Positions 916 to 54,312 of a stretch of DNA of 64,000 nt are shown one piece after another (within the stretch, counting starts at the first letter, position 1; each line of letters begins with the position of its first letter). A program made the position numbers and the translations under genes. The stretch covers positions 12,590,058 to 12,654,057 of the forward strand of contig OW028575.1 in assembly GCA_932294295.1 (NCBI GenBank). Direction: 5' to 3'. Origin of the DNA: Alitta virens (taxonomy: Eukaryota; Annelida; Polychaeta; Phyllodocida; Nereididae). The notes under the pieces were generated by a model, which saw nothing but the letters and a program-made list of their open reading frames with translations, did no database searches and had not been told where the DNA came from.

Positions 916-2370
916 GTACAAATAATTTAGTCCCACTGGACGTAACTTTGATGGGAGAGAACTGTTGTCATATGACATGGTTTCTCGCTAACTTCACTTT
1001 TTTTTTCTGTCTTGTTTGGGATGTAACCTGTCTGCCAATTCATGCTGCCATGATAAATGACTTTCACCAACTCGTAGGAGATTTAAAAGTTTTGATGAGG
1101 TAAGATATAATTATGACCATAACTCGATCCGTAACATGAGAGACTTAATGGCTGAGTTAATTAATTTAATAAAGTGCGGACCATGATGCGTGTGAAATCT
1201 GAAACCGTCTTGTCTAGAGTTAAGTGGTTCTAGTAAGTCGCCTATTATGAGTTAACTCCATTGTAACATTCATTATCACTGGTCTAGACCAGGTCTTGTT
1301 TAAAATGCCACTTTAATATTATTCTAAGACCACCTTGAAATTGCCACACTGAATAGGAATATTTTAAGACAGCTCATCATCATTATATATAGGCCTATAA
1401 CATTAAAGCAATAAAACTTCAGTGATGAGTGGAAAATAGGCCTATGCAGTTTTTTGCCTTTACAACCGAGTTAATGGCCTAGACCTAGACCCAGCCTACA
1501 TATTTTATACAATGCATTTCCGGTGGGAGTTTATTAATTTAAACCTATAACACAAGAAATCCTTTTTCACGTCGTTAATTAATCTTAATCCAAGGTAGTC
1601 TACTACTACAAATATAAGTTCTGATAGCCTATTTTAGCATGGAATGATAGGCTATAGATTCACAAAACAGAATTTATATCCAATCATACTGCTTAATGGG
1701 CCATGTCCACAAAACGCATTGGCGCGTGACATACAATCACCATTACGTAAAACGAACGTTTTGACAGAACCTTCCATCGTGACCTAGATTCTTCTTGCCA
1801 TCTCAAAAATTGCCTATGTTGACGTCCGCAACAAAGACGCTTCGAAAAATAATATTTACTACAAAAATGCACGCGGAAGTTTACTCAGTGCACATCGCAG
1901 GTGTTCCGGGTTTTTATCCTGTCAGGTTGATAAACAGGAGCAGAAAAAAATGCACTGACACAAAATAAGATTTGTTCTTGCTGTCAGTTGTCTTGAATTA
2001 TTAATTCTAGCTGAATTTTAGATAACGAAATAGAAGGTGCCGTGTTGCATCACAATTAGGCAATCGGTGCTGCTATGTTGACCTGTATGTATAGCCACAC
2101 TAATATTGTTGACCTATATATAGCCTCTCTAATATATATATATAGCAAAAATTAAATTAAATCGTGTAATAATTCTTAAAGATAAATGCTGGAAAATATA
2201 CAATTAGGCCTATACAAAATTTCTCGGAAAACGGTTATATTATATATTAATGTATTGGTGTACATTAAAATGCATTAAAAGAGATAATCATTGGTAGAAA
2301 AGCTTAGGCTTCTGGGCTCCTAGCGAACTATACTAGGCTGTTGTGGAAACCTTTATTTTGGCCCTACATG

Positions 2371-2690
2371 CAGACTACGTGATTTCACAACATTGCTCTT
2401 ATCTATAGGCGATGAAAGTAGGTCAATTACTGGGCCCGTTGAATTCAACGTAGCGGCGAATAAAAACTTTTTTTAATATCGCCGAATCTGGTGTTATTTA
2501 GGGTTGTTAAGCATGGATTGTCACTGTTTTGGCTTGATAGAAACCGATACCCACCGTTAAATTTCTTGCTCCCCCACCAGGATTGTTGCTCCGTCCAAAA
2601 TCTGGCAGACCCTCAGGGCATTCGCCCTTCGCTATTAGCACCCCTAGTGGCATAACGCTGCGTAGGAGACTGCCCTAGATGTGGGTCTGT
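2371..2690 (+). repeat. Duplicated segment C, copy 1
   Basis: It shares long blocks with 3052-3350: 'gcgatgaaagtaggtcaattactg', 'cccgttgaattcaac', 'ttaaatttcttgctcccccaccagg' and 'cagggcattcgcccttcgctat'. About 300 bp at high identity with indels. Confidence 0.85.
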
Positions 2691-3051
2691 GTAAAGATGA
2701 AAAATCTGTTCTTGGATTTTGGTTACAGCGTGCTCATTACGAACACTTTCAACTGTAACATTTTTCAATTGGCTAGCCATTCAGTTGATTTAGTTCAAGG
2801 TCTAGAAACTTAATCACCATGCAATGCACTAATTATTCCATATTTTGCAAAAATTTTGTCCTTCAGACATTAATAACATGTGAATTAATTCATGCCACAA
2901 ACGCCAAACTAAATACTAGAATTTATGGGAATGAGGATTCCCCGAGTGTTGGAACAAATTAAAATCCATGTCGGGGATTTGTTTTGAAGAGACTGGAGGA
3001 CAAATCAATCGCCACTTCCCATCAATCAGTCTGCCTCCTACACACCAAGGT

Positions 3052-3350
3052 CAGACTATGTGATTTCGCAACATTGCTCTATAGGCGATGAAAGTAGGTC
3101 AATTACTGCGCCCGTTGAATTCAACATAGCAGTGAACAAAATATTTAGAGTTGTTTGTTAAGTATGGATTGCTGTTTTGGACTCTTAACTGTTGACAGAA
3201 ACTGTTAACCACTGTTAAATTTCTTGCTCCCCCACCAGGATTGTTGCTCTGTCAGAAATCTGGCTGATGCTCAGGGCATTCACCCTTCGCTATAAACACC
3301 CTTAGAGGAGTAACGTTGCAATGACAGGAGAGGGTCTGCGTAAGAGACTG
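3052..3350 (+). repeat. Duplicated segment C, copy 2
   Basis: Direct repeat of 2371-2690, starting about 680 bp downstream. No coding potential is evident in either copy. Confidence 0.85.
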
Positions 3351-10500: not shown

Positions 10501-13500
10501 ATCAATGAAGTGGTCAAGTGGCAAAAGTTGGTACTGTGTGAATTGTGTGATATTGGGTGTTAATGGACCTACATAGGTCTCTGTTCTTCGTCAATAGGTA
10601 TGATGTAGAGAAAAGTTGTACAGGTATAGGTTTTTAGGTATAGGTTTTTAGAGTGGTTTTCTGAATTACACGGTGTTTTGATGTGCAGTCCATTTGCCAG
10701 AACGACCAGCTACAAAGAAAACTAACCAGCTGTAGAAAGCATCTTGCAACTCCTCCCATGAATTTTTATGTGGCGTTACTGTTATTTTACTGAACTTTAG
10801 GTATGTTTTACCCCTGTAAGACGGCCACAGTACCTGTCTTAAGGGGCTAAATTGGTCACAGTGTATTTGACCGCAATCCTCAATTTATTTAAGAGCAGAA
10901 AGGGAATTAAACAGTTATTTATCAAATTTCAACCTCAGCTGCTGGAGGTAGAGGACCAACAACTGAATCGTCTTTTCTTTTTCTTTTTTTCTTTCTTCAT
11001 AAATAGAGGAGGTGTTTATATATGAGAGACATTTGGCATGTTGTGTCAGTTGATTTGTAGTTCTGAGTCAGGCACACTTAAGCCTTCACACCTTGAGTAT
11101 TTGTTCTCATATTTTATGGTGAGCTGAGTTGTTTTTTGGCCAAGTGGAATGCTCGGATGAGAAGAAACGGATAAGAAAGGAATGAATTATTTAGCTGCAC
11201 CTATATATGCATGCTAGCTGAACATTGTATTGTGAACTCAGCAGCTGGGTGGCCTAGTGGTTAATTAATGGGCCCTGGTTTACATCACAGGTCACAGGAG
11301 GTCGTAGTTTCGATACCCGTCCCATGGACTCAATCCATCTTTACGTCATTGACCTGTACATCAGCTGGATGTACTTGGTGTCCACATTGTCACTGTGGTA
11401 TATTATTTTGTTGGATCGAAAATCCTTATTCTTGTGCGATATATGTACATGTTCTTGTAATATAGCATTTACTGCACAGCACTTGATGCAATATCAATTG
11501 TGAAAGCTCCATAGAAACTACTTGACATTGCACTGGTGACTGCAATGTGTAATGAAGAGATGAATACCGATTCCCTGACAGCAAGCAATATTGGGCTGAC
11601 ATTGGGCAGATCGCAGTCATCGTTGGGCCAATATTAAGTTGATGCAACATCCTGATAACAAGCCGCATTGGCACAACTTTGGCCCAACAACGCCTGATAA
11701 CGAGGTCATTTGAACAACATTCACTCTTCTATATGCATGTTGGATTCACATGGGGCCCATGTTTAGCTGACCTGACATGCTATCACGGTGGTCACGTCAG
11801 TTCAACGTCCACCCAACATCATCGTACGCAGTGAAGTTGCTGGCGACAGTTAGGCCACAGTTTTTTTCTTTCGTTTCTCGACACCGCCGGCCAAACTTTT
11901 GCAGTGCCGCTCAATTAATAAATCAACAATTGCACATTTATTTAGGAAAAACCTTTTCTGGGGGGTAAATTTAAAGTTTATTTATTTATTTTTTTTCCGA
12001 CTGACCGTTTCATGAAAAACGGTCCTAGAAAGTTCCGAGAAACATTCGATCAAAAAACCGTGGCCTTAACATTCTGAATGAAAATGATAACAGATATGTC
12101 ACTTAAATATCCTCCAGTTCTCTCTCTAAGAATGTTTTGAATCCGCTGCTGGACGTCATTGAAAACTCTTGCCTGCAACTTCGCTGTCGTCCGAACTTCA
12201 CTGACGGGCACTGTATAATATACATTTTAATACGAGTATTTCTCTTTGTTTGTTTCAGCATAGCAGGATATATCCAAGTGACACATCGTGAGAACATCAG
12301 AGAACCAGCTTGGATCAACGTTGAGGAGCCCCTGGATGGCTGGGCTGGGGGGTCATTGACCCCGAACTCCTTCGACCTCATCCTGTGTATTAATATGGTG
12401 CATATTTCGCCCTGGCAGTGTTCTCAGGTAACTGGGCTTCATATTGTGTGGGTGCGATAAGCAGTGTCAGGTGGGTGGGTGGGTGATTAGGGCTTTACGT
12501 CCTGTATTTCTGCCCCTGATCGGCTAATTAGGACAGGCAGGGACCATGGTAATGAGATGAAGGATGAAACAGCCATCCAACTTAGGCTCGACCGGGAATC
12601 GAACCCGGGACCCAGCGGTTGGAAGCCCAGAGCGCAAGCAGTGTCAGGTACACGCCTATATGCAATTGCTGCAATGCGTTACTAGATAACAGACCCTCTT
12701 TTAAGAAATAAGACCACCTTCGAGGAGGTTGGCTGACGTTCGGTTTTACTAAATTAGATGATCGAGTTGTCTTTAAGTGGAGGTCTCTCGTGGAACATAA
12801 TGACCAGGAAAGGAGTGCTCAAGTCTATCTGGGATGGGTTAGTTTCCCAACTGTGTGCTTGTTTCAGAGCAAAATATTCAACAATTAATCGCAAGACTGG
12901 TCTGACTGCGAAAACCAAGTCTGTTAACACCTAATTAAAATTGTCATGATTTAAGTAAGCCCTGCAGTAGTCAACGCTTGGTAGGAATCGCTGATAATTC
13001 AGGATATTTTCTTTTTCTATTTTTCTTACTTTTATTTTTATTTTTTTTTTTAGCTTAAGTGACATGATTTACAAGCGATTTCTTTGCAGTTTGGTAATAA
13101 CAATGACAAGGAATGCATTTACCACACTTGTTTAGAAAATATTGATAAATTTAGTTTTGGTGTGATAAACAACTGCATATACGGTTGTGGTGTTATAAAC
13201 AACCGTGTGATGAAAAAGGGATAACTGCAAAATCTAGTTTGGCATTTATCAGGCATTTGCCGTGTGGCAAACAGGAATGAAAATCATCTAAATCTTCTCT
13301 CAAGTGTAGAAATCCTCTCCAAATTTGTGAAAAGGTTAGTGTCTATGAAAAGTCACCTCATGAACGAGTCTAGTAAACTTGTCAAAATTATTTGAAACTG
13401 CCTTTGTGTATGGAATATCGCTTCCATGTTAGAAACATTTGTCATGGTGGAATTTACCTAGAAAATTGAGGCTTGGGCAAAACTAACATATTATGTAAAT

Positions 13501-16500
13501 TTTTTATGCCTGGCTAATGCTGCCTTATATTGTTACTATATGTCTGTGATAAAGTCAGAAACACTAACTGGAATCTAAGATATGCTGACATTGTTGAGAT
13601 TAATGAAATATAAATACTCCCAGTTTGTTATGAGATATTAGTTCAGAACTTCATGTTGTTGGATGATCATTTGACCTTGATTAAAATTCGTTTTTTACAA
13701 AATGCGCAGACATGGCTTCATCTATAATGCCTTGCAGCTTGAGCTAGCTTGTCTGCTGATGGGACATGAAACTGGCGAGGGCAAATTGAATATGTTATTG
13801 TCTGTGTTAAAGCGGGTGAAACGCAACGATTCTGCTCCAAATATGATAAAAATTATCCACATGAATACATGTAGGACATGTATGAATTTTGCATTATTTG
13901 CATCCATGAATAACTGTCATTCTAAATTAATTTAGATATTTCATTGTGTTGTTTGTAAAGAAAATGTAGAGACCTACACATGAAACATTATTAAAAGGAT
14001 ACATTTATTTTGAGACCTACATAGGAATTAAACTGCAGAGGACGTCATGTAAATCCAGGACTCCCATTGGGCAAGAGACTGCCATAGCCAGAATCCAGGA
14101 CTCCAATGAGAGTCCTGGATTCAAATGACGTCCTCTGGAGTCCTCGGTTTCCAAGTTTTTGAAATCTACTGTAGGTACAGTCAACCCTGTGTTAAGTGGT
14201 CAAACAGGGGGACTGATGAATATGTTCGTTTAAGCCAGTGGTCGTTTAATAGAGGGGTAAATTACAATAGATACTCTGACCAGGGTGTTGAAAGTGGCCG
14301 TTAACAGCAGGTGATTGTTCTATACAGGTGGCCGTTAGAGCAGGGTTGACTGTTAGGTGGCCATTAGACTGTTAGTAGGTGGCCATAAGAGCAGGGTTGA
14401 CTTTTAGGTGGCCATTAAAGCAGGGTTGACTGTAAGGTGGTCATTAGACTGTTAGGTGGCCGTTAAAGCAGGGTTGACTGTAAGGTGGCCATTAGACTGT
14501 TGGGTGGCCGTTAGAGCAGGGTTGACTGTTAGGTGGCCGTTAGACTGTTAGTAGGTGACCATAAGAGCAGGGTTGACTGTTAGGTGGCCGTTAGAGCAGG
14601 GTTGACTGTTAGGTGGCCGTTAGACTGTTATTAGGTGGCCATAAGAGCAGGGTTGACTGTTAGGTGGCTGTTAAAGCAGGGTTGACTGTAAGGTGGCCAT
14701 TAGACTGTTAGGTGGCCGTTAGAGCAGGGTTGACTGTTAGGTGGCCGTTAGACTGTTAGTAGGTGACCATAAGAGCAGGGTTGACTGTTAGGTGGCCGTT
14801 AAAGCAGGGTTGACTGTAAGGTGGCCATTAGACTGTTAGGTGGCCGTTAGAGCAGGGTTGACTGTTAGGTGGCCGTTAGACTGTTAGTAGGTGGCCATAA
14901 GAGCAGGGTTGACTGTTAGGTGGCCGTTAAAGCAGGGTTGACTGTCAGATGGCTGTTAGAGCAGGGTTGACTGTTAGGTGGCCATTAGACTGTTAGGTGG
15001 CCGTTAGAGCAGGGTTGACTGTTAGGTGGCCGTTAAAGCAGGGTTGACTGTAAGGTGGCCATTAGACTGTTAGGTGGCCGTTAGAGCAGGGTTGACTGTC
15101 AGATGGCTGTTAGAGCAGGGTTGACTGTTAGGTGGCCATTAGACTGTTAGGTGGCCGTTAGAGCAGGGTTGACTGTTAGGTGACCATAAGAGCAGGGTTG
15201 ACTGTAAGGTGGCCATTAGACTGTTAGGTGGCCGTTAGAGCAGGGTTGACTGTTAGGTGGCCGTTAGACTGTTAGGTGACCATAAGAGCAGGGTTGACTG
15301 TTAGGTGGCCGTTAAAGCAGGGTTGACTGTCAGATGGCTGTTAGAGCAGGGTTGACTGTTAGGTGGCCATTAGACTGTTAGGTGGCCGTTAGAGCAGGGT
15401 TGACTGTTAGGTGGCCGTTAAAGCAGGGTTGACTGTAAGGTGGCCATTAGACTGTTAGGTGGCCGTTAGAGCAGGGTTGACTGTTAGGTGGCCGTTAGAC
15501 TGTTAGTAGGTGGCCATAAGAGCAGGGTTGACTGTTAGGTGGCCGTTAAAGCAGGGTTGACTGTTAGGTGGCCGTTAGAGCAGGGTTGACTGTTAGGTGG
15601 CCATTAGACTGTTAGGTGGCCGTTAGAGAAAGGTTGATTGTTAGGTGGCCATTAGAGCAGGGTTGACTGTTGGGTGGCCTTTAGAGCAGGGTTGACTGAA
15701 CCAAGATTTAAAGGTTTTAGAGACAGTAGAGCTACATGCAGCAGTTCAAAACATTTCAGGCTTTGGGGAGAAAAAAAAAATCAATGAATTGACGTATGGT
15801 ATAAGACTATGGCAGGAGTTGAAGTGGAGGATGAAGTAATTAAAGCATATGAGAGGGGGGAAGAGGGTATTCTGTTGCTTTAATGGCTTCAATTACATGT
15901 CAGCCTCATGATTATCCCAGCTAGGGTTCTTGGCAAGCAGAAAATTTATATTGTTCATGGTGGCTACATGGTGGTACCTTTATGCCACTTTGCTATTGTC
16001 ATCCTCTTGACTGTAATGCAATATCAGAGCATGGCTACACTAAAGAGCCCTTGGATTGAAGTTTAAATGAGGTTTTGATTATATTAAAGGTGCTCTCAAA
16101 GAGTGCTTTCTAAAGGCATAATTTTGTTAGACAGTAAAGACCCCAACAGGAAAGCTTTTTGCTTGGAAGAAAAACGTCCAAAAAAGCATATTATGAGGAA
16201 TTGATTATAGTGGTACTGTATGTAGTTAGTGCATGCAGCCAGAATGAGACTCGTGGCTCTGGTTGAAACTGATTATTTATTCCTTATTAAAACATTAAAG
16301 CCAGATGCCATCTTATCTGAATTGTTTAACATTGGGTTAAACAAACATGACTAAACACTTGTTTGGTATGGGTGTTTGGTCCATTATATAATGGTGTTTC
16401 CTGTGGTAAAGGCAGGGGCTGTGTGATGTTGAACCACTCTTTTTCATTACATTTTTACATGTACTTGATTGGTGGTAGTATCCTATAGTGTGGTTTACTT

Positions 16501-18257
16501 TTAATGAAATAGACAGGAAGTGGTGTGAGTGATTTTCAGTTAGCTTTTAGAAAGCAGCTGTGTCAGAGTCATGGTGTGCTTTCAGTCAGCATATCCAGAC
16601 CATGGCTCCTGGCTAGCGTTTTCCCACCCAGACTGCGGACTCAGTCGCTGAGTTTTTCTGCAGTGGACTTTTTTCCCAATGTTTTTTGGCAGCACAAGAG
16701 CAGACAGCAGTGTGGCAGCATCACATTCATTCATCCATCATGGCATCTCAGCATCATATTCTATGGCTGCTGCTGCTGCAGAAACAGAGTCAATGTTTAT
16801 GGAGGTGATGAGAATAATGTTTGCTCTCACTGCACAACTTTTCTCTCATGACCAACCGACAAAACGTGTAAAATAATCAAAAAAAGTTCACCTGAGTGCT
16901 GTAAGGTGCACGCTGAGGTAAAACCTGATGGGAAACGGGCATAATGATTTGTCCTATAATGTATAAAATTTGATATGTGAACAAAAGGTTATGCTGACGA
17001 AGAGGTATCGTTGATTCCTCCTTCGTCTCATTGCCATGGTCTCTGCCTGTCCTAATTAGCCCAACTGGTGCAGAAATACAGGATGTAAAGCTCTAATCAC
17101 ACACACACAAACACACACGCACGCGCACACACGCACGCACGTATCGTTGATTAATTACTCACCCTTTGCCAGGTTTAATTGACAATAATATAATGAATTT
17201 AGTATATTGAAATGGAATTGCAAATAGTTTATTTTAATAGTTCCAATATGTTCCAATTGTTAAACATCTTATATTAATCAATTTTACATTTATGTTGCAT
17301 GTATACACATGTATTACCTAGGGGACCCAAAGAACCCAGGAGGGTTGTGGTAGGGCCAATATAATATGTGTTCTTCTATTTCCAGGGTCTGTTTAATGGT
17401 GCTGGCCAATATTTGAAAAATGATGGAATACTGGCATTATATGGGGTAAGGAAAAGAATCGTGGCGATAAAAGAAGTAATTTGGATTGCATTTGATTTTG
17501 ATCCTTCTGATTCATTTATCATTATGTTGTAATTCCATTTTTTGCTTGCAGCCTTTCAAAATTCATGGAGAGATATCACCAGAGAGCAATGTGCAGTTTG
17601 ACCAGATGCTGAAACAGCAGTAAGTCGTAAACATAGGGAATAAGGCAGCAACCCTAAGTCTGACTTGTGACACTGATATGTATTCATGTTATTCAGTTGG
17701 CAATAATGGGTCTGATGACTGCATTAATTCTTGTTTCAAATTCAAACCAAAGATTTAAAGCGCTAGTTAAGGAACCTCTCATTGATAAAACTATGTTAAA
17801 AATTTTCGTTGCTCACTTTTATTTCAAGAAATGCTGAATGGGGACTGCGAGATGTTGATGACCTTGAGGCACTTGCAAAAGAAAATGGCATGCAAATTGA
17901 AAAGATGGTAAGAGAATGGTGTCTTAGATAATCCAAGATGATTTCATGTTTCAATTGCTATTTATTCATGTAGATACTGAGTGAACTGATAGGCCTTTAA
18001 CCAAAAAGAAGCCTAAGTAAGAATTATGGATGAACTATATTTGTCATGCCAGCTAACAGTATATCAGTGTTTTTATGGCTTTGTTTGGCAATATCGTAGA
18101 AGCAATTTTATCAGGACTGTTAGATGGACAGCCACAATAAATGACCAGAGTCATTAAGAAGCACTTTTTGCATCATTTTAATAAATGTTGGCATGTTGGA
18201 CTGTTACAGGTGGATATGCCCGCAAACAACAAGACAGTCATTTTCCGCAAGAGGTGA
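5504..18257 (+). CDS. METTL26: METTL26-like protein (DUF938/UPF0585 methyltransferase-like), 5' end missing
   Basis: Six coding exons join in frame: 5504-5591, 12259-12427, 17386-17445, 17552-17619, 17829-17907 and 18210-18257 (TGA). All have AG acceptors and GT donors, and the phases agree at each junction. The first exon reads GTGQHITYFAEHL then TWQPSE, matching the SAM-binding GSGQH...EWQPSD region of METTL26. The second ends NSFDLILCINMVHISPWQCS, the family's DL..INM.H.SP motif. Later exons give GEISPESNVQFD, EWGLRD and the C-terminal VDMPANNKTVIF. The family is a small Rossmann-fold SAM-dependent methyltransferase-like group; its substrate is not established to my knowledge. The exon encoding the N-terminal RNK.PIL and VLE.ASG region was not found between 1 and 5503, so it is diverged or lies upstream. 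The 6.7-kb and 5-kb introns are filled with SINEs, MITEs and a minisatellite. The gene converges on HGS. Confidence 0.93.
6692..6925 (+). mobile_element. SINE-B copy
   Basis: It contains 'attccacattggccagctctgctga', a B-box-like GATTCCCGACCC, 'agcagctggattgcgtgagac', 'gctgaggcaagtacaaaacccc' and 'gtaacgtggtgtggactc', in the same order as the 5156 element but on the plus strand. Confidence 0.72.
7542..7577 (+). repeat. (GT)n microsatellite
   Basis: A run of about 17 GT dinucleotides. The short Cys-Val and Thr-His frames over it are low-complexity artefacts. Confidence 0.97.
9665..9708 (+). repeat. (GATT)n microsatellite
   Basis: Imperfect tandem GATT units (gattgattgattgattt, then more). Confidence 0.93.
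11243..11420 (+). mobile_element. tRNA-derived SINE-like element, third type
   Basis: The segment starts CAGCTGGGTGGCCTAGTGG, an A-box-like sequence, and has a B-box-like AGTTTCGATACCC about 60 bp later. That spacing fits a tRNA head. The downstream body differs from SINE-A and partly resembles SINE-B ('atcagctggatg'). It is not a functional tRNA: the stems do not pair cleanly. Confidence 0.5.
12473..12635 (-). mobile_element. SINE-A, tRNA-derived, with perfect 14-bp target-site duplication
   Basis: The sequence AAGCAGTGTCAGGT occurs at 12459-12472 and 12636-12649, flanking the insert exactly. On the minus strand the insert starts inside a tRNA-like head (CTTCCAACC, then GGGTTCGATTCCCGG as B box), continues through a conserved body and ends in a (CCCA)n-type tail. 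The 5' end is truncated before the A box. The perfect duplication indicates a fairly recent insertion. Confidence 0.88.
14036..14137. repeat. Foldback (inverted repeat), about 35-bp arms
   Basis: The left arm 14036-14070 begins CAGAGGACGTCATGTAAATC. The right arm 14103-14137 is its near-perfect inverse and ends GACGTCCTCTG. A short loop contains a further partial 'aatccaggactcc' repeat. It could be a tiny MITE. It sits 40 bp upstream of the MITE/minisatellite complex. Confidence 0.85.
14178..14352 (+). mobile_element. MITE-like element with CAGTCAACCCTG / CAGGGTTGACTG termini
   Basis: A TA dinucleotide (14176-14177) precedes the 12-bp terminus CAGTCAACCCTG. The exact inverted terminus CAGGGTTGACTG ends at 14352. 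The interior is non-coding, with 'gtggtcgtttaa' and 'gtggccgtta' words that mirror each other across the element. TA targets and CAG-type ends suggest a non-autonomous Tc1/mariner- or pogo-type element. The right end runs directly into the minisatellite, so this copy lacks a clean right flank. Confidence 0.7.
14327..15699 (+). repeat. Minisatellite built from MITE-terminus units, about 1.37 kb
   Basis: This is a long array of imperfect tandem units in two main forms. One is about 29 bp and contains AGAGCAGGGTTGACTG plus TTAGGTGGCCG. The other is about 19 bp, TTAGACTGTTAGGTGGCCG, with variants such as TTAGTAGGTGGCCATAAG. The units are arranged in higher-order blocks. The 29-bp unit carries the terminal repeat of the adjoining MITE-like element. 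The array lies within a METTL26 intron, between the exons ending at 12427 and starting at 17386. Confidence 0.95.
17017..17140 (+). mobile_element. SINE-A, 5'-truncated, with perfect 12-bp target-site duplication
   Basis: GTATCGTTGATT flanks both sides (17005-17016 and 17141-17152). The insert carries the family's 3' body (CTGCCTGTCCTAATTAGCCC, then 'cagaaatacagga') and ends in an expanded (CA)n/(CGCA)n tail. The tRNA head is missing, as expected for truncated reverse transcription. Confidence 0.88.
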
Positions 18258-24263: not shown

Positions 24264-27200
24264 CTGAAATATGAAACAAAATTGAACATATGGCTAAAGA
24301 CATTATACTGAACATCAAGCAATTAACAAGAATTTCAGTAAGACAGATAATCTAATAATGTTTTAAAGAAAGTTTCCAAGATTTATCAGAAGTACATAGT
24401 ATCTTTTTAACCTTTGTAAAGCCAAATAATTATGCTCCAACAGAGTTTTAATATAGTCTGGCCCACAAGTTGACATTTACTGGAACAAAATACTGTTCAC
24501 TTACATTTCCACATATTCTCTTTAATAAATTATAACCATTCTTTACATTCCAATAACAAATCTATCAATTTTCCTTTATTTCTATCTAACGTTTTACAGA
24601 TTTTCCTTTATTTGGGTGATTTTAACAACAATTTCATTTAAGTCATTTGTATGTCCATCTTGGCCCGACTTTACATAGTCATAAATTCTTACCGGAGGGA
24701 AGGCATAGCCCATGGCTCTCATGTGTTGCAGTTGTTTCTGCTGCTCCAGTCTCATCTGCATCTCTCTCTCTTGTTCCGCCATCCTTTGTAAAGCCAATTG
24801 TCTTTGATACTCCAGGTATTCCTGTAAGATGGAAAAAAATACCAATGTGTGTTTGAAAGTAACAGGTAGTCAAAGGGTTTTTCCTTATCATTTTCAAGAT
24901 ACATCACTAATAATTTTGGATATTTAGCACAACACCTATTTGTAATACAATAAATCTCACCTATCATAAAAAGAAGTTAATTAAGAATCAGAATGACTAC
25001 ACCACAGAAAATTCTAAAATCTTGTAATCATAGGGATATTTTGGCTGTTTTAACAAAATCTACCCATGACTTTTTCACTTTCTACCAAGCAATAGGCGTT
25101 AATTTACTTTCTCCTGCAAATATATCGCAACATAGGCAAACAAATTGCTGTCATTCCTCCTAACTGTTTCTCATAATACTTGAGAACCTCTTCTATATCG
25201 TTGCCATGGTGACCCAAGGAATTATCTGCAAACTACAGATTCCTAACATCATCTCATTATGCTGATGCAACACCTACAATTTCTAGTGATGCAAATCCTT
25301 TAATTAACCTCATGTGGCTCAAATGATAGAAAAGAGGGAAAACAAGGACAATGGCACCTTGACATACAATGTATTAGCTAAATGCTTTCTCATTAAAAAT
25401 GGGTGCATGCAGTGCAACTACATTAGCAGACACTCAAATACAGGTAAAACTCTACGATAGCTCAAGGCAGTCTCAAAACAATACCTAAAAAGCTAAGCGC
25501 GGGTGGTTACAAGACATCAAAATTTCAAATAATTTGTCCAAGAAATATATTCTAGTGCTGAAGAGTGCAAAAAGTACAGCGATTGCCTTGAAAGATTTTG
25601 AATGGAAGCGAGAGACCACAATGTCAGGTATCCTACAGTAAACAAAGTGTTTTGAGAGAATTCTGGTTTTGTGGGTGCCATCCCATTGACTATTTATTAC
25701 AGGGTATATGTCTTTCAACATTTAATTAGCTTGATTTAAAGTAAGGCCGACTGGAACATAAAGTTTCTTTCGGATTATTTTGTTAGTTTTAATTATTTTG
25801 TTAATTTTAGTTATTTTTTAATTTAAATTTCCCCCCCCCCCCCCCCCCTATGAATCGAGGTTCAAAAGCCAAAAATTGAGTGTCATATGTCCATTTTTTG
25901 TCAGATGCCTTAACAAAAAATTCAGGTCGGCCCTTGTAAAGCCGAGTCAGTCGTAAATCGGAAACAATTTCATATAGTACAACTAACCTGCTTCTTCTGC
26001 CTCATGATCTCCAGCTTATGTGCCATAGCAATCTGTCTCTGTCGCTCAAGTTCCTCCTGCTCCCTTCGTCTCTTTTCACGATGTTCTTCACGGAGAGCAT
26101 CCAGCGCTTCCCTGGCATCTCTGATCTGGGCTAGTTTATCCTGCAGACTTTCATAATGACCTACAAAATCAACAACAATCCGTTACATACAACTATTGCT
26201 ACACAGATATTGGTAGACTTAGTGTCGAAGAATATTATTGTACATTTGTTCAATGAACAATGGATACTCCGTGTATGAGCCACATGTACAGATGTCAACT
26301 ATAAATCAGGGATGTGATTGATCATTGAAAATTTCAGGATCAGTAAGGGGGGGGGGGGGGCGCCAAAAAAAAAAAATTGAATTTGCACGAATCATGAGGG
26401 TCAATTTCACATGCCAAAAAAAAAAGGATTCCGGAAAAAAAACCAGAAACATCACATCCCTGATAAATGTTAAATTCATGAATACTGATCCAGTTCACTG
26501 AGTCATGCATCTTGTTACCATGGTATTTACTGGATTTATCTCACAGTTTCAGCACCTAGATTTCATCTGTGGCTGACACTGTGGTGGTATAACACCCCAC
26601 TTGTTTTCAATCATTGAACCATGCTGAATTACACCATGTGAATAATGCATCATAATTATTATCATTAACCTTATATATAATATGATGAAAACATGATAAG
26701 GTGACTTCTAGCATCTCGGATCTGCCGATATGATGAAAAATGTGTCAACAGAAAATATAATGATAAGGCATGTTATTTAATATAAAATTTTGTCTTTAAA
26801 TGTTTGACTGACTGACCCCTAAAAAAATGCCCTGAGAGGATCCGAGAAGCTAAAGATCAAATAAGTGTGGCCTAAAGGTTATAAAATCACTCACTTCTAG
26901 TTTCGTCCTGCTGGTCCATGTACTTCAGGAGCTGAGGGTGCATGGAATTCAGTGTCATGAACAGAGTTTGAACAGAAGAGTCGTTCGCGATGCTTCTGCC
27001 ACGAAGCGAATTGCTCTTCATTCGGTTGACAAATATCTCGATGCTACTTCGCAAAGCATTCAGGAACTGCTCCTCTTCACCCACTTCACCATTCTGGTAC
27101 TTTTGGGCAAAATTTGAATTGGTCAGTTCTTGTCCATTAGTCACAGTTGCGGCAACATTATTTGGCTGCTCAGTGCGAATCTGAATTGCGTAATGGAACC

Positions 27201-30200
27201 AAAAAAAAGAAATAAAATGCAAATAAAACAAGGAAATAAATAAAACAAGAACACAAAGACATAATAATTCTATAATAACACAATTTATCAAAAACCATGT
27301 AGCTAAGACCATAAATCAGAAAATAATTTCAAATTCATATCATGTGAATGAAAACACCATAAAATATAAATGATCTTCTCATAAATAGAAAGTATGGTTA
27401 TTAATAGTATTTCATACAATATAATTATCAATAACTTCCTCATGGGCCTATCAATCAAATATATTTACAATCTACAGATCTTAATAATTTCAAATAAAAT
27501 GATGTCTTTCTTTCCTTACACTTACACATTCAACCCCTTCCTTCTAATTATTTAGTATGTTTAAAGCCTTGATAGTAAGAAGTGGTAAAATGACCACCAT
27601 TAATTACTGCACCAATCATTATACCCACCTCGGAAGTTTTGTTGGGCTGACCCTTGGCTTCACTGGTAGCAGTGGGGGCAGAAGGCGCAGAGGCACTTTT
27701 CTGATCATCCCTCTTCTGTTCCCAATAGTTTCTATTCAGATATCTGGCCAATTCAGGATCCATGTCCGAAGTGTCCAGCATTGGGGCAGTGACCTGTAAG
27801 CAGCAAATGAAATCTTCATTTAACATCAAGGTGATGTTAATAAAGTAAAACAACTCCATCAGTCAAACAGAAACATTTATTCTTCATCGCATCCCTTAAC
27901 ACTGACTAATGATTGCTGCATTGATTTAAAGAGACTGCAAATCAATAACGACATGGCGAATATTCTGGCACAGAACTATATGTAACTTATTATTTAATCA
28001 TTGTACAACAGACATTGGTAAAATGGCTCAAGTCTAATATAAACCCGTGATGTCATTTGCTTGGATTCAGTGTATGACGTCACAAACATATTACTACTTT
28101 ATTTTTAATTAATTGTTTCCTTTTCTAGTGGGCTTCCTCCAAACCCCCACCAAACTACACAAATGTTAATCTAATTGTGCTATAACTAAAAATTATGATA
28201 AAAATATTAATATATTTATAATAAAGAACCGAATCACTGTTAATATACCATTGGCACTATTTAAGTTAATATTAGACTTGACCAGGTAAAATGACCACCA
28301 TGTCAACAGCAAATTTCAAGGCCCAATAGGAAATGCACACATGACAAAAATTCCAACACCCACAAAGATCTATTTTTCAAAAGAACCCTTTCTCTCATTG
28401 TCTAGAAATGAGTTCCAAAATGCTGTTACATCATGTTTCCATTCGTCAATTGCACAAGTGTTGTTCCAGTCATTTTAAAATATTGTCATTATTTCTTTCA
28501 ATGCTTTCTATTATTTATTAATGTACAAACAACACATACTGTTACTGGCTGGGCATAGGTCGGATTGTTAGGAGGTGTGGAAGAGTCTGCAGCAGTAGTT
28601 GTCTTGCTGTACAAAGAGTAGTTATTTCTGAGGCGATCCCTCTGCAAAGTGAAAAAAAAAAAAAACGCTTAAGAAACAAGAACAGTAAAGTCTCTAAATT
28701 GTCAAAATTGGAAATCAGATAATTGGCAAATATGTAAACTATACACTCAGTACAGACTGAATACATATCTAGCTACAAATCTGAAGTAATCTACAAATTA
28801 AAATGAATTTAAAGACAATTTTGACCAAAAATTATATTGAAAACAAATCCTAAATTACAGCACATGCAAGCATGAATTTTAAAATCAAATTCGAAAAATT
28901 CATATGAGCATCATATTCATCTAAAAAGGATTACACTGTTTACCTTTGTCCTCTGGTAAAACACAAAATTACAAATAACCTATTAGTCATATTATTTTGA
29001 CAAAGTATGGTATATCAAGAAGTTTGTCACAAATGTTAGATTTTCTTCCAACTCCCAATTTCGCAGACACAGAAATGTGACACTGTTTGAAATTGTTAGT
29101 CTGCTCACTTTTATTGTGACAACCAGCCGCAGTATAAAGTATTGTTATTATTTCATAATTTTAAGTATATTATAAAAAGCTAGGAGTTTTTTTATGACTT
29201 CAAAAATGGGAAATCCTCAAGATAAGTAAACAGTCAAAATGCCTTCCACTAAGGTCAAATAATAGTTGTGCTGGTGCTGGAAGAAACGATTAACTTCATC
29301 TGGCCTAGCGCAAGGTCAATGACCTATGGTCACCCACCTCTTTGGCTTTAGCTTCAGCTTCACTTTTAGAAAGAGCAATGGCAAGAGCTAGCTCTTCTTC
29401 TTCTTGCTGTTCTCTATCATTTTGAGTTGGAGGCACCTGAAAAATTTGTTGCACATTGATCAATTAAAGAGTGATTGAATGGGTTAACACATACAGTGAG
29501 TCAGTGACACCACGATATATCATTAATACTAACAGAACCTTCTCCAAGTACCTACACTTGACAACACGGAGTGTCGATTCGCTATGACACCAAACATCAC
29601 CACCCTAGTTGTCTCTTGGTAAGTGATTGCATGAAAGGGTGTAGGGTACAAATAGAAAAATGTTGTAGACTGACTGGTTGCAAAAAAATATGGGATATGC
29701 TTGCTCACATGGAGGGGTCATACAGCAAGAACTACTACATCTAACTTTCTCTTAAATTTTCAGTCAAGTTTTTGACTAGTTTACAATAAACCCATACTCT
29801 TAGACAACAACTGACATAAACACACCTGCGCCTGTTGAGCCAAAGGACTGCTGACATATTCCGAAGGTAGGTCATCCTCCTTCTTGCCACTCGTAGGTCT
29901 ACAAATGAAGAGTCATGATGATAGCTGATCGGACTGACTTTATACATTACATCATATAGCCTTCAAGAAGTTTGTAAAGCTGGATGCAACGCAACATGTT
30001 GCAACATAAGGTAAACTTTAAATTTGCCAAATGGAATTATTTGCTTCCATGAGCATGTACGCTAACATGCAGTTTGATCATTGTACATTGTGATATCACA
30101 CATTACATGACAATATCAAAAAACAAAATAGGATGATGCAGTGGCTGATATAGGTATTCATTATTACAAGCAATTTTAAAATAACTTTGGAAACAGATTA

Positions 30201-33200
30201 GTGGTAGTGAGAGAACTCCGTTTCTAATACAGTATTGGAGTGAGACTAGTGCTTCTTTTTCATTTAGTCTTGCATCATCATAATACAGTTTATATTTAAA
30301 AAAAAAACAGCTCAATTCAAAATTTTTATTAAACACTTACTTGTTCAACTGGTCAAAGCACGAGTCACAGACTCGGACTTCTTTCTCGATACCAAACCTG
30401 GGAATGATCGAAGTCTTTGAAGAACACTTTCCACAGAAAACTTGTCCACAGTTGCGGCAATGGTGCTGAAATAACATACATAAACACTGCAACTCCCTGA
30501 CATGAGAAATAATTAGTTCAGTAACAGGGAGATTGAATTTATGAGATCCACATTTATTTTTAATGTTTTTCAAGGCACACAGAACATTTTTCGTTCATTC
30601 AAACTTAATATTATCCATAAACTGTAATGTACAAATAAAACATTCCATTACATGATTCATGTACCAAGATTCCTTGAAATTACATGTACTGTATTTGCAT
30701 AAAACCATAAAGAAATATTACCTTTCTCTGAACCATGGTGAACTGTACTCGACACCTGTGACAAACTTCCCCATCTTTCCACTCCGGAGCCTTCTCAGCC
30801 GTGAACATGGCATCAGCCTCCTTCAGTTGCGGGAAGGTGTAACCTGCGATTGACACAAATAAAGCCATAAATTGCGCTTACAAGAGAATGACAGAGATAG
30901 TCTGCACACGTGTTGTTCAATTGACTTCAAAATAACATAAATTTTTGTTGAACGCTCGCTGTCTTATTACAAATTAATTAAGCAGTCAGTAGCCAGTAGC
31001 TAGTACAACAAGCCTAGTATAGAAATGACAAACCAGATATATATTTATTTTAGATCTATCATCAAACTGCACATCTGTTCACATATGTGTAGTTTCATAT
31101 GCATAGGTGTATGCCTTGATTTGAAACTGAGTGAATGACACATTAAAAATGAATACACAGACAAGAGACTTCCTGATAAGCAATAAAATGCTATGTTATT
31201 TCAGCACCATTGCCGCAACTGTCAAACAAGGTATGCCTCCTCAGGCAATTTGAACAACATAAAAAATTGCTATTTACATAACTACACCCTGCACAACAGA
31301 GCAAAGAAATAATTCAATGGCAAATTGGCAATTCATTGCAGCTTCTATGGGTATTCTTTATCGTTTTTCAAGACTGTTGTCACTATAATGCAGCCACTCT
31401 CTGTGGTAAACATACCACATTCCACTCACTGACTCACCAAATTCACCCCACAGATCCATAATAAACTCCCTCCACTGTATGTATGTATACAAGATAAACA
31501 ACAACAATATAATGGCTTGAACTGATCACAAATCCAGGATCAACCAGTCCTCGAATTAAGCTCAAGAATAAAACCAATCAATATCTAGTCCACTCAGGTG
31601 TTTGAAACGCCACAGCAAGTTATGAGGTCATAGTCTAGTTTAATTCTCTCACCTTAGTTCTCGGCTGATAAAGCAACTGACTCACTGCCACATGCACAAC
31701 AGCCATACAGTTATAAATAGCTACATGACCTAGTTGCATAAACAATTAGCCATGTGGACTGACAATGCAAAACGAATGACAAACCTAAAAATAGGACAAC
31801 AGACTGACACTCCTGACCTACTTGCTGAAGTTAAGTTGTAGTTTTGATGTACCTAAATTACAAATAAGGATGCTGTCATCCTATTTAAATCCAATTAATT
31901 GGTATGGGACAAAAAAAAAAAACTTAAGCCACATCTTACTGATAAAGATCACATCACCACTGAACAATGCTAAAGGTGATTATAAAACACCACTGATGTA
32001 CAAAGTCTACAAAAACAAAAGACTCAACATCCTTCCAACATGAACTGATTAGTCACACTCTCTTTTGGTACTGATACGATGACACTAGCATGCATAAAAC
32101 ATTCACACTTTAAAAGGTTTATAAAGCATTAAATTATCTATCTACCACAAAATGTTCCACAGAGGATAAGTAAATAAATGGACTCACCCTCCATTTTCAT
32201 CAAGTGGAAAGTATCCTGCACAACTTTGTAACCAGGTTCATTACGAAAAGCATGGGACCAAACTTGAATTAGCTCACAAATTTTGGCCTTCACTGGATCA
32301 GGGCGAACCTAAAAAGAAGGAAGAAAACCATCAACAATTATTTTAAAATGTACAACTTCCTGGTTCTAGATAGGAAATAAAGACTCATATAATCATGATA
32401 ATATTCAGGGTAGCATTTCGGACCTACTGTCATCTGGAATATATTCAAGGTGAGGAAGATAGGCTATCACAATACTGTGTATTATTTTAAGCTTGAGGAT
32501 TGAAAATATGAAGTAGTAATTATATTTTAGAAGAAATTGAGAAATGTCTTTTAGTGATATTTATGTTAAAAATATTGTCACTTACATCAAAAATATTGTT
32601 GACATTCAATTGATTATATATGGTTGGAATACTGGCTTAAGTCACCAGTGACTATTTAAACTATTGTTTATAGATTTGAAGTATAACACCTGGCTTGGTT
32701 GATGCCACCAGGTACTTGTATTATTGTATAATGAAAAACAAACACATTGCTAATCTCGAGACTGTGACAAGGGTTTCCCTCATCTTCAGTGTAGATTTAA
32801 GTAAACAGAAGCAGCTGTATTTTTTATTTTTTACCCCCATGCAACTGCTCATCTTCATCTTTCACCTTAATACACTTTGTAAGTTTTCATAAATTTTAAT
32901 TTTTATGTAATTAGTTCTGTTGTGATATCATAATTACTGTCATTTTGATATATTATTTAAAATAACACAAATTTTTTATTTGATTAGTTTTCCCAGGGTG
33001 GGCTCAAGTAGCCACCTCCTTGCAACTACTTTTTGTGTATAATCATAATGTTAAACAAAATAGGACATCATATAGTCTAGTTTTTTGTATTTATCTAAAT
33101 GTTCTGTATCACATTTTTAAAGTTGCGCTTGAACTGTCTCATATTCATTACCTGTAGACACCCAGGTATATACAGTGCATATAAATAAGCTGCATAGTGC

Positions 33201-35395
33201 ATACGCAATACAAGCAATTTTGTATCATATAAAAACACCATTTGATATTGATTTTATAACGAGAATAGATTAGGCAAGAAAATATGCAGGCCTTCATAAA
33301 GGTGTAGAAAGCTTGCCAGTGCATTAACTATGCCTTCACCAGGTCAAAGAAATGCCAATTTTGAGAAATTTGTATCAGATATAGTTGTGGGACCAGCTGT
33401 ACACAGCAAGCTATGTAAAGCTCACATACCTCACTAGCTGTAGCTGGAGAATTATCTATTTCCTATATGCACAGTAGGTAACATATTCATATAATGACGT
33501 CTGGTTAAATCTATACACCTACTCTCTTAATCAGTCAGTCATCTCTAAATTATTTGGACATTTTCATCACGATACAGTTGGGTTATGCAACAGAAACAGA
33601 CGGGGCACTCCCCAAAAAAAAAGAACAAGGAAAGGGATTGTCATACCATATAACTACACTTGCCTGGTATTTACTAGAATGGCATATCAAATGTGTGATC
33701 TGATGCAGCTCTGGCACTAAGCCTCACACGTCCCCACAGGTGGGTCGATGAGTGAGGCTTATTGCGAGGTAAATATTCAACAAGAAATCGATGATTACAG
33801 GAGAGTCAGGAAAAATAAAAACGAGGGATGGGATCATGGAAGACTATGTAGAGCCGATGACTGCTCAAATATAGTCAAAACTGTGTTAAGTGATCACTTA
33901 AGGAATAGAGCAATCTGGACATTCAAGACAGGTGGTTAATTAATAGGGTTTAAAACAATGGAAATTCAGTCTGGGGAAGTTGCAATTTGGTGTCCGTTCT
34001 TTACAGGTAGCCATTAGAGCAGGTTTAGCTGTATTTTGAACAGTGGCGATTAATTTGAAAAATCTTGCACTTCAGTAGGATTTAACCAAATGCCCACCTG
34101 TTTTTGAGTCATATTTTTTTTTCATAAATGGACAGAAAGGTCAACCCCCTGCCCCCCCCCCCCCCTGAAAAAAAAAAAGGAATATTTTTTTCTTTAATAC
34201 TAAACCAAAAGTACCTTGACAATGTCTTTGAAGAATTCCATGAACTCTTTAGTTGCCACTTCTTGATGAACCAGTGATCCGCAATTTTTCACACATGACT
34301 CTAGAACCTAATTGTGTAGTCAAACAGTAGAATATAGTAACAGCTAGAGCAGAAACAGATCTTTATAAATATGACGGACAAACACCATTTTTTGCATGGG
34401 ATGCTATTATTACTGACCTGCAGAGCATACAAGCTGATGTGAGGATTTTCACTGTTAATCTTCTTTCTCAGAATAGAAACAACATATTTTGGGCTGCAAC
34501 AACAAACATAAATTTGTGTAGCATTGACACCTTGCTTTTCTGTGTACATAACAGATAAGCAGTTCATTAACTGACATCATAATCATGTCTATCAGTTAGC
34601 CGTGTTTTACATGCAGACATGCCAAAACTCCCGTATCGAAGGGAAAACTCCCGAATTTGGTGCTAAATCTGCTCTGTTCTTCTGATCTCCCAAATGACAA
34701 GTTAATTCTCGAAATTGTTTGCAACACTTTTAATTTTGATGCATAGTTGTCACATCTTATTATAGCCATTATAGTTAGTACAATGATGTCTGTGAAAGTC
34801 ACACTTACGAAGCATCACCACCTCGGATGAAATCGCATATCTGAATTATCGAATCCCAGTCGGGCTCCAGTAAGAGCTGGCTGGTTGCTTTGTCTGCAAA
34901 AGACAGATTTTATTTGTTTAACCCTGACCTTCACAGCTGGAATCAAACTTTGTAACAGATCTGTTAAATCAGATCAAGCAAAAATCATTATTTTGCATTT
35001 GACTCAAGTCTTCGTTTTTTAATGTACAAATTACAATATGTAATTTTGGTGTTTTTTTTTTACATCAACTGTCCACAGCGAGTCAACAAAGGCCTCCATC
35101 AAGTTCATGCAGGTCTGTTGACAAACAAATGAAGCCTCGAAAGCTCTGTTTATTCACATTGTATAACAGAATATGATGCTAACTTTATCATGTATGCACA
35201 AACAGCTGCATTTTGGTGTCTGAAAGTAGCACAAAAAGCTGCCAACACCACTTCAGAAAGTCATCAAAGTGTCACCATTTACAATGATTTAGTCATATTT
35301 AATCGGTTATTTACATTCTATACCAAATTTAAGTTCATCTGCATTCTTTGTTTACCTATAAGGCGGTCAATCCCCGCTGTAGAACGTCCGAACAT
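23112..35395 (-). CDS. HGS: Hepatocyte growth factor-regulated tyrosine kinase substrate (Hrs), ESCRT-0 subunit, complete
   Basis: Sixteen coding exons in transcript order: 35395-35356, 34893-34809, 34493-34418, 34307-34215, 32308-32188, 30843-30722, 30465-30341, 29898-29826, 29436-29338, 28641-28546, 27793-27629, 27180-26895, 26160-25988, 24821-24693, 24263-23843 and 23314-23112. They total 2307 bp, 768 codons plus TAA, and every phase matches. Human HGS has 777 residues. Domain order is VHS (about 1-140), FYVE (160-220), UIM (257-272), PSAP (347-350), helical core and coiled coil (about 365-560), a Pro/Gln/Gly-rich tail, and a terminal LICFD clathrin box. In the family, Hrs binds endosomal PI3P through FYVE and ubiquitinated cargo through VHS and UIM, and recruits TSG101 (ESCRT-I) through P(S/T)AP. 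It forms ESCRT-0 with STAM. The start is the first ATG after an in-frame stop and gives [19 protein letters not shown], like other Hrs N-termini. It is transcribed away from ARL16. Confidence 0.97.
25833..25849 (+). repeat. Poly(C) tract in HGS intron
   Basis: An uninterrupted run of about 17-18 C, G-rich on the HGS coding strand. Confidence 0.93.
26346..26379 (+). repeat. Poly(G) then poly(A) tract in HGS intron
   Basis: A run of about 15 G, then CGCC, then a run of A. Confidence 0.93.
27629..27793 (-). other. HGS: HGS exon with [14 protein letters not shown] block and PSAP motif
   Basis: This 55-codon exon contains the Hrs-specific [16 protein letters not shown] block and a Ser/Ala/Pro-rich stretch that includes PSAP at residues 347-350. 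In the family, P(S/T)AP motifs bind the UEV domain of TSG101 and link ESCRT-0 to ESCRT-I. The position is nearly the same as in human HGS (348-351). Confidence 0.88.
29338..29436 (-). other. HGS: HGS ubiquitin-interacting motif exon
   Basis: This 33-codon, phase-0 exon encodes an acidic run followed by [17 protein letters not shown]. That matches the UIM core e-e-e-x-phi-x-x-A-x-x-x-S-x-x-E. The Hrs UIM is known to be double-sided, binding ubiquitin on both helix faces through offset Ala/Ser positions; ALAIALSKS is compatible with this. Confidence 0.9.
30341..30843 (-). other. HGS: HGS FYVE zinc finger (two exons)
   Basis: Exons 30843-30722 and 30465-30341 encode the FYVE finger. It has the WxxD motif (W160), the basic RKHHCR patch at residues 178-183, and all eight zinc ligands in four CxxC pairs: C166/C169, C182/C185, C190/C193 and C212/C215. 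The PI3P-binding signature is intact. The intron falls between K179 and H180, splitting the basic patch. Confidence 0.95.
33872..34031 (+). mobile_element. MITE-like element, second copy, with TA flanks
   Basis: The ends TAGTCAAAACTG and CAGGTTTAGCTG are diverged inverted forms of the 14178 element's termini. TA dinucleotides flank both sides (33870-33871 and 34032-34033). The interior keeps 'gtgttaagtgatca' and 'gtagccattagagcagg', matching the intron copy. It lies in an HGS intron and has not expanded into a satellite. Confidence 0.65.
34146..34178 (+). repeat. Poly(C) then poly(A) tract in HGS intron
   Basis: A C run interrupted by one TG, followed by GAAAAAAAAAAAG, close upstream of the 34215 exon boundary. 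Confidence 0.9.
34215..35395 (-). other. HGS: HGS VHS-domain exons (residues 1-98)
   Basis: The first four coding exons encode [15 protein letters not shown], a [10 protein letters not shown] helix, [14 protein letters not shown] and [12 protein letters not shown]. This is the conserved order of VHS helices in Hrs. The domain finishes in the fifth exon (32188-32308), which contains [14 protein letters not shown] sequence (read here as [19 protein letters not shown]). VHS domains bind ubiquitin on sorted cargo. Confidence 0.93.
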
Positions 35396-35463
35396 ATTGA
35401 AAACTTGACAGAAATGATCAGTCCACCTTCGATCCCGTCACTGTCTTATGATGGCTGCCCAAA

Positions 35464-35471
35464 TGACGTCA
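35464..35471. promoter_or_regulatory. Consensus CRE (TGACGTCA)
   Basis: A perfect 8-bp palindromic cAMP-response element lies about 70 bp upstream of the HGS start codon. A GATGGCTGCC word resembling a YY1 site lies immediately beside it (about 35450-35460). CREs close to the TSS are common in divergent housekeeping promoters. Function is inferred from sequence only. Confidence 0.6.
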
Positions 35472-35653
35472 TCAAAATGATCCCGTTCAGTCATGGTCAA
35501 AACAAGGAGCAAAACAAACTACAAAATCCAAGCCAAAACCTCGTCTGATAAAAGTTGAAGCTGGACAGTAACAATTAGCGAAAAAAACTGGACATAATGC
35601 ATATTTTTTGCAGTATTTTGACTGATTATAGAGGGCGCTACGACGGAATCCCC

Positions 35654-35670
35654 ACTTCCGGGGTTTCCCC
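35654..35670. promoter_or_regulatory. Overlapping ETS-like and kappaB-like sites
   Basis: ACTTCCGG (35654-35661), the reverse complement of CCGGAAGT, overlaps GGGGTTTCCCC (35660-35670), a near-symmetric Rel/NF-kappaB half-site pair. They lie about 120 bp upstream of the ARL16 ATG. ETS motifs are frequent in TATA-less divergent promoters. Use of the kappaB-like site is speculative. Confidence 0.5.
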
Positions 35671-35786
35671 AGGAATAATTTGACAGCTGTCAAATGAAAT
35701 GTTGTGGTCATAGAACTGTCAGATCTTCGTGGATTGTGTTAGATATGCTCCAGTTGATCCTCTGAAAAGAGCGCTAGACAAGCCTC

Positions 35787-40817: not shown

Positions 40818-41106
40818 TCATACAAGAATGAAAGACAATTCGTTGTCCGGATCGCAGGAGCATTCTTCGTGCTTGGTCTTCATCACCCATTTGCCGTGGC
40901 ATCCTGGAATGGTGAAAGCGTCCCATCGTGTCTCCTGCAAATACACTCCGTGTCCTTTGCATCGAACTCCCAACTTGTGCTTCATGGCGAAACCCTGGCA
41001 CTCTACACAAACTGTGGTTCCCTTGGTCAACTGACGACTCCACTGATGAGACTTCGCGGCTGTGCAAGCGTGGCTGCTTCTGCTCACCTCAAATCGTGCA
41101 CAATAT
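40818..41106 (-). CDS. SBSPON: SBSPON (RPE-spondin)-like protein, last coding exon only
   Basis: This is a 3'-terminal exon. The acceptor (TTTTGCAG) is just above 41106; one base completes a split codon, then 95 codons run to TGA at 40818-40820. It encodes YCARFEV, GTTVCVECQGFAM, VRCKGHG, RWDAFTIPGCHGKW and ECSCDPDNELSFILV. These line up in order and spacing with the C-terminal cysteine-rich domain of human SBSPON (YCMEF, GYTVCVDCQPPAM, LRCSGDG, HWQAIGNPRCQGTW, QCSC...SFIFI). SBSPON is a secreted matrix protein with a somatomedin-B and a thrombospondin type-1 domain upstream. Those exons should lie above 41106 but I could not recognise them up to 64000. A minus-strand AATAAA (40445-40450), about 370 bp past the stop, could serve as its polyadenylation signal. 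Confidence 0.82.
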
Positions 41107-54228: not shown

Positions 54229-54312
54229 CAGTCAAACCTGCCTTAAACGGCAACCCAAGGGAACTGATAACGTGGTCGTATAAGTGAGGTGGCCGTTTAA
54301 TACAGGGCTAGG
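54229..54312 (+). mobile_element. MITE-like element, truncated third copy
   Basis: It begins CAGTCAAACCTG, continues 'cttaaacggcaaccc', then has 'gtggccgtttaatacagg', the element's mirrored internal words. The right terminus is degraded and the middle is largely deleted. Confidence 0.5.

Follow-up and report, generated by a model that had tools for sequence, protein, structure and literature searches.

Tandem repeats derived from MITEs

The Xstir tandem repeats were reportedly described on the Xmix MITE of Xenopus by Hikosaka and Kawahara in 2004. In the sections that deal with this subject, reviews list many tandem repeats derived from MITEs and TIRs, including Xstir on Xmix, TIR-220 of Tetris and miDNA4 (PMC9659126, PMC12628747, PMC6947457, PMC6004289). 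A transposon-end origin of tandem repeats is already known, and the array considered here, which adjoins a 175-bp MITE copy (E1) in a 64,000-nucleotide stretch of the Alitta virens genome (contig OW028575.1; this whole stretch is called the window, and positions are given in its numbering), is a well-preserved single-locus example.

Xstir and Xmix resemble the E1 array in that short tandem repeats arise from part of a MITE, and the portion of PMC12628747 devoted to them describes MITE, tandem-array and composite forms. They differ in that Xstir forms a large family of repeats, carried by a Kolobok-type MITE with a TTAA target according to the passage in PMC6004289, whereas the E1 array belongs to a TA-targeting family and occupies one locus. 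Xstir is assigned to a TIR in a table of PMC9659126 and to an internal segment in the relevant part of PMC6004289. TIR-220, from the Tetris foldback elements of Drosophila virilis, likewise forms satellite-like arrays from repeats of the terminal inverted repeats, but its units of ~220 bp lie inside the TIRs, its arrays are of kilobase size and its amplification is tied to beta-heterochromatin (PMC4079207). A MITE-associated satellite is found with miDNA4, a Tc1/mariner MITE of Xenopus, whose growth has been proposed to proceed via microhomology in replication or repair; unlike the unit of the E1 array, its monomer sits within the MITE, is regarded as a captured sequence and occurs either singly or in arrays of variable copy number (the passages on miDNA4 in PMC12628747 and PMC9659126). 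The CMITE arrays of Acropora corals also consist of MITE sequence in tandem, and replication slippage has been proposed for them, but in that case whole elements are repeated and the target is TTAA (PMC2872659, in its part on these arrays).

Element E1 and the adjoining array

The element and the array are probably intronic. A DUF938 exon ends at ~12427 with a splice donor (CAG/GT), as read by eye, and a putative intron of a METTL26-like (DUF938) gene, whose next exons were likewise placed by eye, spans 12428–17385 on the plus strand and holds both. We take the gene to be METTL26, and further plus-strand exons at ~17386 and ~17830 presumably belong to it. A separate fold-back element, with 39-nt arms that are 90% complementary and 32 nt apart, occupies 14032–14141 and ends ~35 bp before the MITE. 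Elsewhere in the window, Hrs_helical and FYVE exons of an HGS-like gene on the minus strand adjoin an ARL16-like GTPase gene on the plus strand (26890–37133), presumably the same neighbours as in human, and a minus-strand open stretch at 40821–41195 matches SBSPON_C (E 1.1e-11). After its five best hits, the ARL16-like protein has its next named hits in annelid and mollusc.

E1 lies at 14178–14352 on the plus strand, is short and non-coding, and carries a perfect 12-bp terminal inverted repeat, the score of which was reached by none of 1000 dinucleotide shuffles; the left repeat, CAGTCAACCCTG, occupies 14178–14189. Toward the right end are found, all on the plus strand, an inner subterminal direct copy of the terminal unit (GTGGCCGTTAACAGCAGG, 14294–14311; 0/1000 shuffles), the spacer TTCTATACAG (14318–14327) and the terminal 27-mer (14326–14352), which is the apparent template of the array unit. 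The first-pass annotation had called the element TA-flanked, and TA is indeed present at its left (14176–14177), but the dinucleotide after 14352 is TT, so that E1 itself has TA on one side only.

The array starts without a gap at the end of E1 and runs for 1346 bp on the plus strand (14353–15698), which agrees with the earlier description of an element passing directly into about 1.35 kb of tandem units, except that the block ends at 15698 rather than 15699. It comprises 52 units (28 of 29 bp, 18 of 19 bp and six of 32 bp), and with E1's own last unit (14324–14352) included, the stretch 14324–15698 divides without remainder into 53 units with 19 different sequences (29 of 29 bp, 18 of 19 bp and six of 32 bp). 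The 29- and 19-bp classes had been noticed at first reading, and the six 32-bp units are additional to them. The unit corresponds to E1's last 27 bp plus two bases, in keeping with the earlier statement that the main unit carries the element's own terminal and subterminal sequence, and its commonest form (10 of 53) departs from the terminus in the two leading bases alone, the other 27 bp being identical. Direct reading of the sequence gives the 19-bp form as the 29-bp form minus 10 bp between two GA pairs, and the 32-bp form as having three additional bases, mostly TAG. At the 52 internal junctions the unit is followed by TT (42), TA (seven) or TC (three). On its plus strand the window contains the 12-mer CAGGGTTGACTG 33 times and the reverse complement of this word a single time, at E1's left end; in a search at up to 2 mismatches, no exact CAGGGTTGACTG was found in the window outside 14170–15700.

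The first reading also took the whole block as one MITE whose right end had been amplified. An array that stops precisely at the terminus makes it plausible that the entire block remains a single transposon whose right boundary is intact; the AA at 15699–15700, where a right TA is expected, keeps this reading short of proof. Decay of the right target duplication is possible, because AA also follows two of 24 other right ends.

Two other places in the window had been listed as unexpanded copies. The first, E2 (33872–34031, plus strand, with TA on both sides), is a genuine, unexpanded and collinear relative of E1 (0/1000 shuffles), and its own inverted ends have decayed until they are no better than chance, their score being reached in 963 of 1000 shuffles. 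The second, E3 (54229–54310, plus strand), is only a truncated 5′ fragment of 82 bp from the same family, and it is uninformative on expansion because the right end is missing. Neither is counted among the 46 other copies considered below.

The MITE family in the genome

When the genome of the window (671,116,069 bases in 23 contigs) was searched by BLAST with the 175-bp E1 as query, at least 40 matches, E1 itself included, were obtained over several contigs, 40 of 142 candidates having been scored. Because identity to E1 is only 70 to 90 per cent among the 39 other matches listed, the family looks old. Twenty-nine of these 39 were read as loci; at up to 7 mismatches, exactly one terminal unit was recognized in 25 of the 29 and none in four, and no tandem terminal unit was found in any of them. 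TA is found after the right end in 19 of 24 cases and before the left end in 12 of 18, and 10 of 17 two-ended copies have it on both sides; near-full copies number 17 and are 160–185 bp long. With its many dispersed matches and target-site duplications, E1 is a member of an old, dispersed family of MITEs that carry TA target duplications and whose ends are CAGTCAAACCTG-like. A TA target is stated for the IS630/Tc1/mariner/pogo group in the pertinent part of PMC7325037, and the transposase of the E1 family is probably of this type.

A second sample was drawn from the places of CAGGGTTGACTG, which number 133 in the genome (81 + 52), against 45 (18 + 27) for the reversed pattern. A hundred of the 133 were listed, 34 in E1 and the array and 66 elsewhere, and all 66 of the latter were read, mostly as loci of 801 bp, with family membership accepted at E up to 0.001. 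Eighteen of the 66 proved to be family members, as against none with the reversed query. One unit-like word is present in 15 of these 18 and none in three, and a tandem unit was found in none of them; TA follows the terminus in 12 of the 18 members, compared with seven of the 48 non-members, of which four also contain one unit-like word. Other dispersed repeats or duplicated stretches also carry the 12-mer, in three groups (L040, L041, L048 and L049; L025, L030 and L061; L042 and L043) that have identical or near-identical flanks and show no MITE match.

Among the 53 DDE_1 matches in the genome, 30 loci were examined with ~1.5 kb on each side, and none of these 30 has a family-like end pair at up to 3 mismatches of 14; at 4 mismatches end pairs appear in six of the 30, a figure without a chance control. 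Two DDE_1 loci, L119 (2840–3096) and L128 (154–402), contain a short element of ~250 bp with the ends TACAGTYGACCCTC and GAGGGTCGACTGTA, which are like those of the MITE family. At a third, L134, the DDE_1 match has an open frame of 769 aa, and a long array of TCCAGTCACTGCTG-like words, mostly spaced every 30–33 bp, lies beside it at ~2027–3277.

Direction of derivation and founder

The words that precede the terminal unit reveal the direction of derivation. A TTCTATACAG-like spacer stands before the terminal unit at 23 of 24 dispersed right ends and a word like the inner decamer is present at 22 of 24, both by lenient tests (chance ~0.12 and ~0.04, respectively), and the two occur together at 21 of 24. 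The sharing of subterminal words by other copies, with which the first-pass annotation had linked its account, is thereby borne out. E1 has both the spacer and the inner decamer, whereas array units 2 to 53 lack the spacer and are preceded by the terminus itself. Therefore, the dispersed arrangement, spacer included, is ancestral, and the array is derived from the element.

The founder is indicated by variant bases. The terminus consensus of 24 copies is AGGTGGCCGTTAGGGCAGGTTTGACTG and that of E1 reads AGGTGGCCGTTAGAGCAGGGTTGACTG; the bases at E1's two departures are present in five and in one of the 24 copies, and the two jointly, as GAGCAGGGTTGACTG, in none of the 24 right ends found by BLAST, while AGCAGGGTTGA is carried by 34 of the 35 long array units. 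One member of the 12-mer sample (L032) also has GAGCAGGGTTGACTG, in a sample that shares the 12-mer by construction. Because the array carries E1's variant terminus, seen at none of the 24 other right ends, it most likely grew from E1 or was homogenized with it. Gene conversion from the array to E1 could alternatively have supplied the shared bases, in which case their source would still be local.

Origin and growth of the array

The best explanation, to which we give a probability of about 0.92, is insertion of a MITE, local duplication of its right end and growth by blocks to 53 units. A copy of the TA-targeting MITE would have inserted into an intron, and at this locus alone its right terminal 27 bp, together with two adjacent bases, would have been tandemly duplicated. 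A 10-bp deletion would have produced the 19-bp form and, most likely, a duplication of TAG the 32-bp form, and blocks of several units would have been multiplied by unequal exchange or replication slippage until 53 units were present. The first duplication would most likely have occurred by slippage or repair synthesis at a break at the right terminus, and may have been helped by the degenerate direct repeats at the family's right end, the inner copy of which in E1 lies at 14294–14311. No function is needed to explain the array.

Blocks of units have been duplicated within the array. A seven-unit word of 183 bp is present at both 14916 and 15301 and a six-unit word of 157 bp at both 14788 and 15407. 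There are 17 matches that span at least three units, and none of 2000 shuffles of the unit order reaches this number or the longest word. The edge units (the first five and the last three, an edge set by eye) differ from the commonest unit by 2.4 bases on average and the rest by 1.4. A non-random unit order with more diverged edges is what block-wise unequal exchange or slippage would be expected to leave. Adjacent pairs of 19-bp units are found in 0 of 18 cases, for which random order gives a chance of 0.00014, a value that is too small given block duplication.

The first duplication is compatible with slippage, with template switching during repair synthesis, and with a double insertion of which part was later deleted. 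Double insertion departs from the best explanation in this first step only: a second copy would have inserted into the TA beside the first and been mostly deleted, and the leftover terminus (TA + 27 bp) would have been amplified by unequal exchange. Such events have been put forward as raw material from which satellites may evolve (McGurk and Barbash 2018, as cited in the part of PMC12628747 on this topic), and the composition of the unit, a terminus plus 2 bp, would be accounted for, as would the TA directly after the terminus at seven of the 52 internal junctions. However, the other junctions have TT (42) or TC (three), and the exact tiling of 14324–15698 leaves no remnant of a second element. 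Repair or slippage is favored because TA stands at so few junctions, and double insertion is accordingly considered a minority possibility.

Since the unit ends exactly at the terminus plus two bases, the right breakpoint coincides with the terminus, the place at which a transposase with a TA target would make its cut. It is tentatively conceivable that the expansion of E1 was started by the transposition machinery, through transposase cleavage at its right terminus and reiteration of the duplication in gap repair, although we would not expect this to be the case. The duplicated piece would then be the last 27 bp plus the 2-bp target dinucleotide, anchored at the terminus.

It is very unlikely that the array has been retained because the terminal-repeat half of the unit binds a protein, for instance a transposase or some domesticated relative. 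Among units 4 to 50, the 47 interior ones, the variable sites number 10 and are confined to the first 16 columns, and none of the 13 columns of the terminal half varies (Fisher p 0.0004), but this interior cut was chosen after the exceptions, units 3 and 51, had been seen; all 53 units together give 10 of 16 against four of 13 variable columns (p 0.14), and recent block duplication likewise yields uniformity. Selection on the terminal half of the unit is a suggestion only, drawn from these column counts.

A private single-locus minisatellite

The genome has 25 occurrences of the junction of adjacent units, searched for as TTGACTG-(1 to 7 bases)-GGTGGCCRTTA, and all 25 are in this array (control 0); a junction built on the family-consensus terminus gave no occurrence in the 671 Mb. 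The patterns were exact apart from the gap and the ambiguity letters, so that at this sensitivity, which strongly diverged arrays could escape, the array is solitary. The 33 places of CAGGGTTGACTG left out of the 12-mer sample are located in the remaining ~237 Mb, where 36 would be expected if they were as dense as in the ~434 Mb that contain the 66 listed ones; therefore, a second large array of exact CAGGGTTGACTG could hardly be accommodated there.

The two samples of the family have one locus in common (C2:42400058) and together give 46 distinct other copies, 39 of which have one unit, seven none and none a tandem unit; the seven say little about expansion because a right-end unit is not recognizable in them. 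These counts weigh heavily against repeats riding on the MITE, in which the family would generally carry arrays and E1 would have arrived already expanded. Riding repeats are known in other MITEs, Xstir/Xmix and miDNA4 among them (in the sections on these in PMC12628747 and PMC6004289), and an array with the terminus as its exact end could move as one block, but neither the exact array pattern nor the consensus-terminus pattern revealed a second junction in the genome. Expansion as a general trait of the family is disfavored, and arrival in expanded form is highly improbable. The array abuts the element, as it would if the MITE had inserted into or landed beside a pre-existing, unrelated satellite, but this has a negligible chance and is rejected at the level tested, the commonest unit being identical to E1's terminus over 27 bp and the exact junction pattern having no match elsewhere in the genome.

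The widespread unrelated satellite that the first-pass annotation had named as the counter-case did not appear in the genome search. The annotation's phrase "satellite birth from a transposon end" holds as to the transposon end and is too strong as to the satellite: satellite DNA forms abundant arrays at several places or in heterochromatin, whereas exact patterns place this junction at a single locus. With tandem units of ~10–100 bp at one locus, the array is a private single-locus minisatellite, not a satellite. A comparison with Rfam gave no match at the gathering score. The exact unit pattern is absent from viral contigs and prokaryote genome contigs, as expected for an animal repeat, and a degenerate unit pattern is absent from viral contigs. 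Among open-licence papers, six 12-mers of the terminus matched eight, none of them on repeats to judge by the titles, and the terminus of the MITE family was not encountered in print there.

Implications for the birth of tandem repeats

Many tandem repeats are linked to transposons, and often the founder is not identifiable or the arrays are already widespread. At this locus the founder, its unexpanded sisters and one private array coexist in one assembly, so that direct reading gives the direction, the founder and the boundaries of the units. The E1 array could thus become a test case for the early steps of such repeats, namely which end breaks, how the first duplication comes about and how variant units spread. 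If cleavage by the transposase did start the expansion, the birth of a tandem repeat would be a by-product of a failed excision at one end of the element.
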